A stretch of 64,000 nucleotides of DNA from Meghimatium bilineatum (Eukaryota > Mollusca > Gastropoda > Stylommatophora > Philomycidae), in NCBI GenBank assembly GCA_034231615.1, contig CM067309.1:31232798-31296797 (forward strand). The letters run 5' to 3'. Below are positions 34,162 through 50,102 of this stretch, piece after piece; position 1 is the stretch's first letter, and each line of letters opens with the position of its first letter. The notes under the pieces are model-generated. The model was given only the letters and a program-made list of their open reading frames with translations, was not told where the DNA came from and ran no database searches. The position numbers and the translations under genes are program-made.

Positions 34162-34327
34162 AGTACTAGTATTTACTCATTCTCTGAGCAAGTACGCTGC
34201 TATATTATTTTGTTCTGTACTCATTCTCTGGGCAAGTACGCTGCTATATTATTTTGTTCTGTACTCATTCTCTGGGCAAGTACGCTGCTATATTATTTTG
34301 TTCTGTACTCATTTTCTGGGCAAGCTG
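34162..34327. repeat. 44-bp minisatellite, 4 copies, cut by the palindromic element
   Basis: Unit contains TGTACTCATTCTCTGGGCAA and CTATATTATTTTGTTC. The last copy is broken at its GGGCAA-GCTG by the insertion that follows; its AAGCTG is the left target-site copy. Confidence 0.93.
34322..34327. other. target-site duplication, left copy (AAGCTG)
   Basis: AAGCTG sits immediately before the element's first bases AGTAGT. Same word immediately follows the right end. Confidence 0.85.
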
Positions 34328-34352
34328 AGTAGTGTATGCTGCATGTAATGAT

Positions 34353-34680
34353 ACGTGGGTCAGTTGGTCAGTTGGGTCAGTTGGGTCAGTTCCGGGTCAG
34401 TTGGTCAGTTGGGTCAGTTCCGGGTCAGTTGGTCAGTTCGTGGTCAGTTGGTCAGTTCGTGGTCAGTTGGTCAGTTCCGGGTCAGTTGGTCAGTTCCTGG
34501 TCATTTGGTCAGTTCGAGGTCTGTTGGTCAGGTCAGTTGGTCAGTTGTGTCTGTCAAGGTCAACAGACCAGAACAGACCATAACAGCCCCAAAACGGACC
34601 CATGGTCTGTCAAGGTCAACAGACCCGGAACTGACTCGGAACGGACCCAGTGTCAGTGAAGGTCAACGGACCTGGGGAAC
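34353..34680. repeat. subterminal GTCAGTTG-type repeats, left
   Basis: Dense tandem GTCAGTTGGTCAGTTCCGG and variants, passing into diverged GGTCAACAGACC / ACGGACCC units. Three frames are open because of the repeat. Mirrored at 49744-50071. Confidence 0.93.
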
Positions 34681-34734
34681 AATGGTCCTGTGTAAGATTT
34701 TATGACATGGTGGGAGGGTTTGTAGGTGGTACCA

Positions 34735-34905
34735 AGTGGTACCACAACCAATGAATGGTCACCGAAACGGGTCGAACCCGCGCGGTGTGTGGGCCCGGAG
34801 CGAAACCGGTCGAAACCGGCCGATCCCGCGTGGTGTGTGTGCCCGGAGCGGGGCGGTGATATCGGCGGGGCGGGCGGCGAGGTCCCCGACCCAGACAACT
34901 GGAAA
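34735..34905. repeat. GC-rich subterminal block, left
   Basis: A GC island (CGAACCCGCGCGGTGTGTGG and the near-duplicate CGATCCCGCGTGGTGTGTGT, each followed by GCCCGGAGCG) in otherwise AT-rich DNA, preceded by GGTACCAAGTGGTACC, a short inverted repeat. Could be a protein-binding or replication/packaging site. Mirrored at 49519-49689. Confidence 0.75.
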
Positions 34906-34954
34906 AGGGGTGGGTGGGATTTTCCCTTTAGATTTTGTGGTAAAGAAAACGTCT

Positions 34955-36240
34955 ATGGAAAGTTACAATGAATGAGGTCAGTATAACCAGGTCATACGGT
35001 GGTGGGGTCATATATACCTCTACCATATGTAGATCTAGGTCAATTCCTTAGAAGGAATAGTACTGACGTGTGTGCCACTTGTGTTTAAAATTCAAATTCC
35101 CACCAGCAAAACACCATAAAACTTTACGATACAAGGTCGATTAGCCATCCGGTGGGGCACGGAAACTTACAGTGAATGATGTCAGCATAGCCCGATTACG
35201 TTGTCGGGGTCATCCATAACACTACGCTATTTAGCTCTGGTTCAAACTGTGCGATGACATAACAGAGATGCACACTTTTCCACAAAGAAAATGGGCTGGA
35301 AACTTAGAAAGAATGAGGTCAGCATAACCGGGTTAAAAGGTGGGGGTCATATATACCTCTACCATATTTAGATCTAGGTCAATTCCTTAGAAGGCATAGT
35401 ACTGCCGTGTGTGCCACTTGTGTTTAAAATTCAAATTCTGACCAGCAAAACACCATAAAACTTTACAATTCAAGGTCAATTAACCATCTGGTGGGGCACG
35501 GAAACTTACAGTGAATGATGTCAGCATAACCCGATTACGCTGTCGGGGTCATCCATAATACTACCCTATTTAGATCTGGTTCAAACTGTACGATGACATA
35601 ACACAGATGCATACTTTTCCACAAAGAAAATGGATGGAAACTTACAATGAATGAGGTCAGCATAACCGGGTTAAAAGGTGGGGGTCATATATACCTCTAC
35701 CATATTTAGATCTAGGTCAATTCATTAGAAGGAATAGTACTGACGTGTGTGCCACTTGTGTTTAAAATTCAAATTCCCACCAGCAAAACACCATAAAACT
35801 TTACGATACAAGGTCAATTAGCCATCCGGTGGGGCACGGAAACTTACACCAAATGTTGTCAGCATAACCCGGTTACGCTGTCGGGGTCATCCATAACACT
35901 ACCCTATTTAGATCTGGTTCAAACTGTACAATGATATAACACAGATGCATACTTTTCCACAAAGAAAATGGGTTGGAAACTTACAATGAATGAGGTCAGC
36001 ATAACCAGATCATACGGTGGGGGTCATATATACCTCTACCATATTTAAATTTAAGTCAATTCATTAGAAGGAATAGCACTGACGTGTGTGCCACTAGTGT
36101 TAAAAATTGAAATTCCGACCAGCAAAACACCATAAAACTTTACGTTTCAAGGTTGAGTGGCCATCTGTTAGGGCACGGGCTATTTCAATATATGATCATT
36201 AGCGAACTTTTCCACAAAGAAACCGATACTGGAATCTTAG
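34955..36240. repeat. about 340-bp two-part tandem array, left arm
   Basis: Alternating sub-units: A (about 200 bp, GAAACTTACAATGAATGAGG ... CCATCCGGTGGGGCAC) and B (about 135 bp, GAAACTTACAGTGAATGATG ... TTCCACAAAGAAAATGG). A and B share their first 40 bp, so the 340-bp unit arose by duplication and divergence of a shorter one. About 3.6 A-B pairs, starting near 34960, 35297, 35637 and 35977. No open frame runs through it. Confidence 0.93.
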
Positions 36241-37044
36241 CACGAATGATGTCAGCATAATCCGATCACGCAACCAGTATATGAAAGCGAACACCCTTTA
36301 TCTATCTTAGCTGTCTCTGTATATAATCACTATAAGCATGGTTGGTGTCCGAATGTAGGGATATCGTTTTGTGATCATGCTATATTATTATTAATGATAT
36401 TAATATACTGATACAAATGCTATTTAAATTATTAGTTTGAATTTCAAACAGTATTTTACAAAATATTTCCAGCTTTATGAAATAGTTTAAAAGGAAAAAT
36501 AAATCCCTATATAAACTCCTGTGATAAACCACAGGTAAAGTGTAACGGCTTAATTACTGGCTCGAGACGGCGTACGCGTGTCAATCGATAATCACCAAGC
36601 GTGACGGCTTGACCACAGTGTAAAATGTATTAGAGTAACACAGACACTGACAAAATAATTGGGGGTAATTATAAGAAACATATATATATGCATGAAGCAT
36701 ACATAAGCGTGAACATGTCGCATTCATAACATTCCTTGAATTACTGAAAACGGTTAAAAATTAGTCTTACTATTAAACAATGAAAATTTTTAAAAACTGG
36801 TCTGTTAAATGCTTACAATACGGCCACCTGGTAGAGATTAACACCTTCTGTTATGACTAGCGTCTCTGGCATCTTTATTACCATAATTTTGAATATTTGT
36901 AAACCTCACTATACAACACGATTTAGCGCTGTGTTATGAGTGTTCTCAAACTCCCTAAGTCTTCGTACATATATAGTTAAATATACCTTGGTGTAAGAAT
37001 TAGAAATTGTACCAAATTAATACAATTTCATTATTACAGGCCCT

Positions 37045-48183: not shown

Positions 48184-49469
48184 CTAAGATTCCAGTATCG
48201 GTTTCTTTGTGGAAAAGTTCGCTAATGATCATATATTGAAATAGCCCGTGCCCTAACAGATGGCCACTCAACCTTGAAACGTAAAGTTTTATGGTGTTTT
48301 GCTGGTCGGAATTTCAATTTTTAACACTAGTGGCACACACGTCAGTGCTATTCCTTCTAATGAATTGACTTAAATTTAAATATGGTAGAGGTATATATGA
48401 CCCCCACCGTATGATCTGGTTATGCTGACCTCATTCATTGTAAGTTTCCAACCCATTTTCTTTGTGGAAAAGTATGCATCTGTGTTATATCATTGTACAG
48501 TTTGAACCAGATCTAAATAGGGTAGTGTTATGGATGACCCCGACAGCGTAACCGGGTTATGCTGACAACATTTGGTGTAAGTTTCCGTGCCCCACCGGAT
48601 GGCTAATTGACCTTGTATCGTAAAGTTTTATGGTGTTTTGCTGGTGGGAATTTGAATTTTAAACACAAGTGGCACACACGTCAGTACTATTCCTTCTAAT
48701 GAATTGACCTAGATCTAAATATGGTAGAGGTATATATGACCCCCACCTTTTAACCCGGTTATGCTGACCTCATTCATTGTAAGTTTCCATCCATTTTCTT
48801 TGTGGAAAAGTATGCATCTGTGTTATGTCATCGTACAGTTTGAACCAGATCTAAATAGGGTAGTATTATGGATGACCCCGACAGCGTAATCGGGTTATGC
48901 TGACATCATTCACTGTAAGTTTCCGTGCCCCACCAGATGGTTAATTGACCTTGAATTGTAAAGTTTTATGGTGTTTTGCTGGTCAGAATTTGAATTTTAA
49001 ACACAAGTGGCACACACGGCAGTACTATGCCTTCTAAGGAATTGACCTAGATCTAAATATGGTAGAGGTATATATGACCCCCACCTTTTAACCCGGTTAT
49101 GCTGACCTCATTCTTTCTAAGTTTCCAGCCCATTTTCTTTGTGGAAAAGTGTGCATCTCTGTTATGTCATCGCACAGTTTGAACCAGAGCTAAATAGCGT
49201 AGTGTTATGGATGACCCCGACAACGTAATCGGGCTATGCTGACATCATTCACTGTAAGTTTCCGTGCCCCACCGGATGGCTAATCGACCTTGTATCGTAA
49301 AGTTTTATGGTGTTTTGCTGGTGGGAATTTGAATTTTAAACACAAGTGGCACACACGTCAGTACTATTCCTTCTAAGGAATTGACCTAGATCTACATATG
49401 GTAGAGGTATATATGACCCCACCACCGTATGACCTGGTTATACTGACCTCATTCATTGTAACTTTCCAT
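48184..49469. repeat. about 340-bp two-part tandem array, right arm
   Basis: Mirror of the left-arm array, with the same number of units and the same unit-specific variants. Confidence 0.93.
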
Positions 49470-49518
49470 AGACGTTTTCTTTACCACAAAATCTAAAGGG
49501 AAAATCCCACCCACCCCT

Positions 49519-49689
49519 TTTCCAGTTGTCTGGGTCGGGGACCTCGCCGCCCGCCCCGCCGATATCACCGCCCCGCTCCGGGCACACACACCACGCGGGA
49601 TCGGCCGGTTTCGACCGGTTTCGCTCCGGGCCCACACACCGCGCGGGTTCGACCCGTTTCGGTGACCATTCATTGGTTGTGGTACCACT
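49519..49689. repeat. GC-rich subterminal block, right
   Basis: Mirror of 34735-34905. Open frames on both strands here follow from composition and are not called as genes. Confidence 0.75.
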
Positions 49690-49743
49690 TGGTACCACCT
49701 ACAAACCCTCCCACCATGTCATAAAATCTTACACAGGACCATT

Positions 49744-50071
49744 GTTCCCCAGGTCCGTTGACCTTCACTGACACTGGGTCCGTTCCGAGTCAGTTCCGGG
49801 TCTGTTGACCTTGACAGACCATGGGTCCGTTTTGGGGCTGTTATGGTCTGTTCTGGTCTGTTGACCTTGACAGACACAACTGACCAACTGACCTGACCAA
49901 CAGACCTCGAACTGACCAAATGACCAGGAACTGACCAACTGACCCGGAACTGACCAACTGACCACGAACTGACCAACTGACCACGAACTGACCAACTGAC
50001 CCGGAACTGACCCAACTGACCAACTGACCCGGAACTGACCCAACTGACCCAACTGACCAACTGACCCACGT
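49744..50071. repeat. subterminal GTCAGTTG-type repeats, right
   Basis: Reverse complement of the left-end array (AACTGACCAACTGACC...). Sits about 25 bp inside the right end. Confidence 0.93.
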
Positions 50072-50096
50072 ATCATTACATGCAGCATACACTACT

Positions 50097-50102
50097 AAGC
50101 TG
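50097..50102. other. target-site duplication, right copy (AAGCTG)
   Basis: AAGCTG directly follows ...CATACACTACT. Removing the element and one copy reconstructs a continuous pre-insertion site. Confidence 0.85.

Follow-up and report, generated by a model that had tools for sequence, protein, structure and literature searches.

The stretch analysed here (the window) comprises 64,000 nucleotides of the genome of the gastropod Meghimatium bilineatum, located at C12:31232798-31296797, where C12, like the labels C1, C2, C22 and so on below, denotes a contig of the window's own assembly (GCA_034231615.1). Within the window lies an element of 15,769 bp (positions 34328-50096), beginning with AGTAGT and ending with ACTACT, which on balance is best explained as a giant-palindrome, non-autonomous relative of the Polinton (Maverick) transposons. 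In a self-BLAST comparison, positions 34323-50101 paired with their own reverse complement at 99.65%. The element is bordered by a perfect 6-bp target-site duplication, AAGCTG, at 34322-34327 and 50097-50102; by simple arithmetic, the chance that a direct match of 6 bp falls exactly on the ends of the palindrome is about 1 in 4096, and the same value applies to the AGTAGT end. An earlier note, made from the letters alone, had described two inverted halves of about 7.85 kb, AG...CT ends and the AAGCTG duplication. The halves and the duplication were both confirmed, the coordinates being refined around 34328-50096, and the ends could be extended to AGTAGT...ACTACT. A 44-bp tandem array at 34174-34324 ends where the element begins, and its last bases are overlapped by the left target duplication.

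The left arm (34328-42173, plus strand) and the right arm (42253-50096, minus strand), delimited by sequence comparison, are reverse complements of each other, 7.85 kb each, and outside the centre they differ only in two substitutions, the length of a run of A and the length of an AT microsatellite (35 units at 37047-37116 in the left arm, 31 units at 47316-47377 in the right arm). Between the arms lies an asymmetric centre of 79 bp (42174-42252), an imperfect palindrome of alternating CACGGG/CCCGTG units flanked by CACGGGATCCCGTG, which holds six of the eight inter-arm substitutions as well as several indels. A subterminal tandem array of a 339-bp unit in 3.6 copies occupies 34955-36178 (plus strand), with its mirror copy at 48246-49468 (minus strand).

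Genes carried by the palindrome

An open stretch at 38741-39025 (minus strand) carries a PC4 (p15) domain, which passes the Pfam cut-off (E 5.2e-6), and is 65% identical in amino acid sequence to the PC4 gene of a full-length Polinton on C22 described below; its mirror copy falls at 45407-45691 (plus strand), a position deduced from arm symmetry. An open reading frame (ORF) of 237 amino acids at 41218-41931 (plus strand; mirror copy at 42501-43214, minus strand) combines a C2H2 zinc-finger region, below the Pfam cut-off, with a C-terminal region, and its residues 102-237 are 42% identical to the C22 ORF located between the ATPase and integrase genes. Sequence comparison thus identifies the two recognisable genes of the arm as Polinton genes that have diverged. 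No gene for integrase, polymerase, ATPase, protease or capsid was found in the 27 arm stretches scanned with Pfam, a set leaving out some shorter stretches, so the element is at most a non-autonomous Polinton relative. The virus-like genes claimed in the earlier note are therefore represented weakly, by the PC4 domain and the sub-cut-off C2H2 ORF, while none of these 27 stretches gave a match to a Polinton core gene.

Two homologues of the zinc-finger ORF were found, both on short contigs of 1.0-1.3 kb. P0001 (205 amino acids) is 65% identical over 86% of the query and has the same layout of fingers and C-terminal region, while P0002 (183 amino acids; 39% over 46%) covers the C-terminal part only, as does the C22 gene, hinting that both lineages, the palindrome type and the C22 type, may be present elsewhere. 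The homologue search gave none for the PC4 stretch. Comparison of four arm stretches with PHROGs yielded only two matches, both for one stretch (E 0.24 and 0.31). No relatives were confirmed in viral contigs or prokaryote genomes, collections that could not reveal relatives in hosts of this kind.

Related palindromes elsewhere in the assembly

The whole assembly (1.61 Gb, 32 contigs) was searched for relatives. With the first kilobase of the element as query, 117 genome matches were obtained, several per element because of the tandem repeats that it contains, and many of them formed facing pairs 13-23 kb apart. Seven of nine such pairs examined were full palindromes (C18, C8a, C7, C2a, C3a, C3b and C12b); the remaining two (C22 and C8b) had only the terminal repeat in common with the window element. 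Seven further palindromes were recognised by both ends and the centre (C6, C1a, C2b, L057, L058, L059 and C8c). Including the window element, 15 palindromes, 13,213-15,818 bp in length, were thus read at both ends and the centre, and the arms were compared at length in eight of them. The AGTAGT//ACTACT motif lies at the limits of inverted identity in the window element. It is also carried by the other 14 palindromes, one end with a one-base variant, where the motif itself was used for placing the ends; the placement was backed by the limits of inverted identity in five (C18, C8a, C7, C2a and C3b).

A perfect 6-bp target duplication was found in 11 of the 15 palindromes (AAGCTG, CATGTT, CACCTT, GTCGTG, AGGACC, ATCCTC, CATATA, CATGCC, ATCATT, CACCTC and CACATG), C6 being counted if its extra left AGT belongs to the element, and C2a showed a match of five of six bases. 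The other copies with different target duplications for which the earlier note had asked thus exist, and the differing flanks that the earlier note had raised against an assembly fold-back recur among them. A motif at the edge of the centre, allowing up to three mismatches, gave 108 forward and 107 reverse genome matches, as opposed to none in either direction for a control pattern, and the places listed (the first 100 or so) were mostly facing pairs 70-350 bp apart. Ten further centres were sampled, and all ten were palindromic over essentially the whole of 1.4-1.6 kb, with a self-inverted identity of 96.4-98.7% and arms 88-98% identical to the window arm. Judging from the count of the centre motif and the sampled centres, the genome probably contains about a hundred copies of the palindrome.

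The possibility that the centre is a separate small element merely residing inside palindromes was rejected, as all ten sampled centres were palindromic to the nearer fetched end or to within 15 bases of it. A single accidental fold-back is ruled out by the existence of the family; where the earlier note had pictured one integrated accident, the evidence rather points to a long-lived family propagating as palindromes.

Similarity of the arms within and between copies

Over the inner 5.2-5.8 kb of the eight copies compared at length, the two arms of one copy differed by 0-5 substitutions, sister copies by 0-6 and different lineages by 16-49. Among 81 gap-free variable columns, 68 were symmetric in every copy; 11 of the 13 asymmetric columns were private to one arm of one copy. 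The same pattern was observed in a wider set of 19 copies, each with at least about 580 bp on either side of the centre, aligned over an inner region of about 590 columns after removal of those with more than four gaps. The two arms of one copy differed by 0.17% on average (median 0, maximum 1.03%), compared with an average of 3.60% (maximum 8.35%) between copies; 70 variable columns were symmetric and 14 were not. In the tree of these copies, the two arms were sisters in 11 of the 19, and seven of the other eight belonged to groups of identical or near-identical copies. The zinc-finger ORF is open in both arms of the window element, C18, C3a and C3b and frame-shifted in both arms of C8a, C7, C2a and C12b. 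In the PC4 stretch, none of the 16 arms of the eight copies has a stop codon; synonymous and nonsynonymous differences between the copies were too few for use. The large difference between copies and the small difference within them, together with the changes shared by sisters in both arms, suggest that the palindromic form is itself inherited and that the two arms are homogenised.

The centres behave differently. After 26 centres had been read and sorted by eye, 14 were found to contain the same asymmetric module, A-B, in either orientation and in some cases shortened. The others were A-A in C2a, B-B in C2b and B-[A]-B in four (C12b, C1a, L044 and L059), with six shortened or rearranged otherwise. 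The recurrence of an asymmetric centre makes it most likely that these palindromes arose from earlier palindromes. The arms match each other and the two sides of the centre do not, which suggests that each arm is corrected by the other and that the loop escapes this correction. In the A-A and B-B centres, correction may have run through the loop, or a new fold-back may have taken place.

Some copies show further irregularities. C8c (C8:36103884-36117951), the copy at C1:30478907-30493398 and L045 (C20:20413300-20414700), in which the ends are unequal and the duplication is missing, or the arms belong to different clades, are possibly products of recombination between copies, perhaps accompanied by chromosome rearrangements. 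Two centres 42 kb apart (C2:70246546-70246702 and C2:70288353-70288509) carry the same one-base variant at mirrored positions, as if a larger inverted duplication carried one copy at each end. At C2:115901102-115905252, two centres of the same pattern, the first of them among those read, are separated by only 4 kb, which points to an arrangement that is shortened or in tandem.

Co-resident full-length Polintons

The element at C22:62101109-62124198 is a full-length Polinton of 23,090 bp with the duplication CACAGG, in which a block of genes is repeated by an internal tandem duplication of about 7.6 kb. Its genes, identified with Pfam, include an integrase (rve, 5e-17) with a chromodomain, a packaging ATPase (Adeno_IVa2, 2.2e-5), an adenovirus-type protease (6.6e-5) and PC4. 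An ORF of 1418 amino acids contains the motifs KLLGNAAYG and DTDSLY, which we take to be those of B-family polymerases. A full-length relative sharing the end and carrying an integrase, which the earlier note had envisaged together with a polymerase, is thus present in the same genome, its polymerase by motif only. C8b is related to the C22 element, with about 93-95% identity along most of its length, and its open stretches are shorter. Two more full-length copies, C2:119 (15,624 bp, duplication CACGAC) and C15 (16,172 bp, duplication GATGAC), were recognised by their ends, duplication and one sampled interior stretch each, and C1:70 has a Polinton-like interior and a right end, with no left end within the stretch read.

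The terminal 588 bp of the window element (34328-34915, plus strand; mirror copy at 49509-50096, minus strand, again placed by arm symmetry) and the ends of C18 agree at 99.83% with the terminal repeat at the left end of the C22 Polinton. The corresponding partners of C2:119 are C2b, 99.3% identical over about 300 bp, and C8c, whose left end is 100% identical over 317 bp. From these shared ends, the palindromes are probably mobilised in trans by full-length Polintons. The arm genes have diverged from those of C22 (65% and 42% identity, as above) while some ends are near-identical, which suggests that the palindrome lineage is old and that some of its ends were renewed recently.

Other features of the window

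The Rfam and tRNA scans of the window gave nothing. The window is rich in minisatellites, with 50 rows at a Tandem Repeats Finder score of at least 80, including a 23-bp unit repeated 90 times at the left edge; minisatellites lie at 1-2068, 10588-11676, 32013-32533, 54728-55274 and 58089-58721, among others.

Discussion

The palindromes share with Polintons the end motif, the 6-bp duplication, and PC4 and one further gene related to those of the co-resident Polinton, and their total length (13.2-15.8 kb) is similar to that of the co-resident full-length copies (15.6, 16.2 and 17.5 kb, and 23.1 kb for the one with an internal duplication). The target duplication of Polintons is 6 bp (PMC10045372, PMC8097293), and vertebrate Mavericks, 12.7-24.6 kb in length, most often end with (AGT)2//(ACT)2 (PMC8097293). 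The terminal repeats of vertebrate Mavericks measure 46-1,447 bp (PMC8097293), whereas the inverted repeat of the palindrome is half the element; in addition, the arm stretches scanned yielded no gene for integrase, polymerase, ATPase, protease or capsid. The class proposed in the earlier note, a palindromic non-autonomous Polinton, is supported by the ends, the 6-bp duplications, the co-resident full-length Polintons and the diverged arm genes. Palindromic or hairpin derivatives that are protein-primed and helper-dependent occur among the pGKL1-derived hairpin linear plasmids of the yeast Kluyveromyces and the symmetric defective genomes of adenoviruses; unlike these extrachromosomal products of the laboratory or of passage, the present palindromes form a natural family integrated at many loci. 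No palindromic Polinton and no such family was found in the literature searched, including passages of PMC4028283, PMC2836005, PMC10045372, PMC8097293, PMC3907307, PMC3573991, PMC10680173 and PMC6431247.

We favour, with a probability of roughly 0.6, a family of giant-palindrome, non-autonomous Polinton relatives that are likely copied and integrated by full-length Polintons acting as helpers, and whose halves are likely kept identical via a hairpin formed in replication. Long ago, the short inverted repeats of the centre would have let a Polinton-derived molecule fold back on itself, and copying would have turned it into an inverted dimer. Large inverted duplications can arise through such fold-back at short inverted repeats, with the spacer retained; in these, too, inverted copies surround a kept spacer with short inverted sequences at its edge (PMC3907307). 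Unlike the present family, those are single chromosome rearrangements and not mobile. The protein-primed polymerase of the helper would then start at the terminal repeat common to both ends, the displaced strand would snap into a hairpin of 7.8 kb, mismatches in the stem would be corrected and the loop, that is, the centre, would mostly be left alone. The integrase of the helper would insert the whole palindrome with a 6-bp duplication. Occasionally an end may be exchanged with the terminal repeat of a helper; through the hairpin step, the other side would then acquire the new end as well. An extended form of this model, which we put forward as tentative and at somewhat less than even odds, is a natural satellite of Polintons with a hairpin genome. 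Such a satellite would hold half a genome of information in a self-complementary replicating strand, correct its mutations within the molecule in every cycle, fill a helper-sized particle by doubling (13.2-15.8 as compared with about 15.6-17.5 kb, a packaging limit perhaps lying behind the similar lengths), capture helper ends and occupy about 100 chromosomal sites.

The arms of the same helper-dependent palindromes may instead have been kept alike after insertion by chromosomal gene conversion from arm to arm, as in the palindromes of sex chromosomes. We regard this as unlikely, though a serious alternative, for identical arms around a less converted spacer are the pattern expected of such conversion, and the two asymmetric columns left unexplained above, both in C7 and 68 alignment columns apart, with one arm ancestral and the other like the sister copy, resemble a conversion tract. 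In the sister pairs (window element/C18, C8a/C7 and C3a/C3b), however, 23 columns carry a change that the two sisters share, each of them in both arms. Among the changes found in just one of these six copies, six affect a single arm and two affect both, so that correction after insertion looks slow; the numbers are small. Moreover, the helper-matching ends on both sides of the window element, C18 and C2b are explained in one step by one passage through a hairpin. It is quite improbable that every palindrome arose independently, a parent without palindromic structure having folded back each time at the same inverted repeat in the centre. Such fold-back with a retained spacer is a known route (PMC3907307), and the symmetric centres of C2a and C2b are what a fresh event would leave, but the same asymmetric module recurs in 14 of the 26 centres, and no single-arm parent was seen among the places read (C19:48620971, C2:15402011 and C23:40766134 left out). 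One sample, C25:45307926, matches neither the arm nor the C22 pieces used. The arm lineage is also deep, with up to 8.35% between copies and a zinc-finger gene 42% identical to that of the helper in the alignable part. An assembly artefact, by chimeras of hairpin reads or collapsed repeats, is very improbable: near-identical arms do invite collapse and the palindromes are known here from assembled sequence, but the flanks differ, 11 of the 15 copies have locus-specific 6-bp duplications, the arms carry their own microsatellite lengths and single-arm substitutions around an asymmetric centre, and the 108 and 107 centre-motif matches, against none for the control, are spread over many contigs. 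Least credible, and already contradicted, is a Foldback/Galileo-type element, a member of the P superfamily whose terminal repeats are very long and which has no relation to Polintons. Foldback and Galileo do resemble the palindromes in their very long inverted arms with internal tandem repeats and in having some copies with mismatched ends and no duplication (PMC3573991). In contrast, Galileo has a 7-bp duplication and repeats of about 0.9-1.3 kb (PMC3573991), as opposed to 6 bp and 7.8 kb here, and the palindromes have AGTAGT ends, a terminal repeat in common with an integrase-bearing Polinton and Polinton-derived arm genes.

Like the C7 columns, several other observations weigh against the helper-dependent hairpin explanation that we favour, and the data do not separate homogenisation in the mobile phase from chromosomal gene conversion. 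The duplication is missing in three of the 15 palindromes, with four (L058), three (L059) and two (C8c) of six bases matching, and C8c and L059 have unequal ends besides. The arms of L045 fall in two different clades of the tree, and the palindrome at C3:44776400-44784710, which has opposed arms, shows a damaged standard centre and lacks about 560 bp of the right inner arm. Nine of the 15 palindromes have no end matching any helper copy read at more than 95% over more than 150 bp (C8c counted by its left end), the ends of C6, L057 and L058 having no partner at all among the full-length copies read. As to the helper itself, the C22 polymerase is recognised by its motifs only, giving no match in Pfam, PHROGs or polymerase structures of the PDB at the thresholds used. 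In the same element no major capsid gene was identified, the 453-amino-acid ORF between integrase and protease having no sequence match in Pfam, PHROGs or the PDB.

Giant-palindrome forms are known mainly as defective genomes, and the present family indicates that a lineage of virus-like transposons can be maintained in such a form. The copies provide a natural record of parallel change in both halves of one element, in which the unpaired loop serves as an internal control. The shared ends tie this parasite lineage to particular full-length copies, so that the use of helpers, the capture of ends and correction via a hairpin are testable from sequence. About 100 palindromes of 14 kb per genome would also bear on the tolerance of cells for cruciform-forming DNA.

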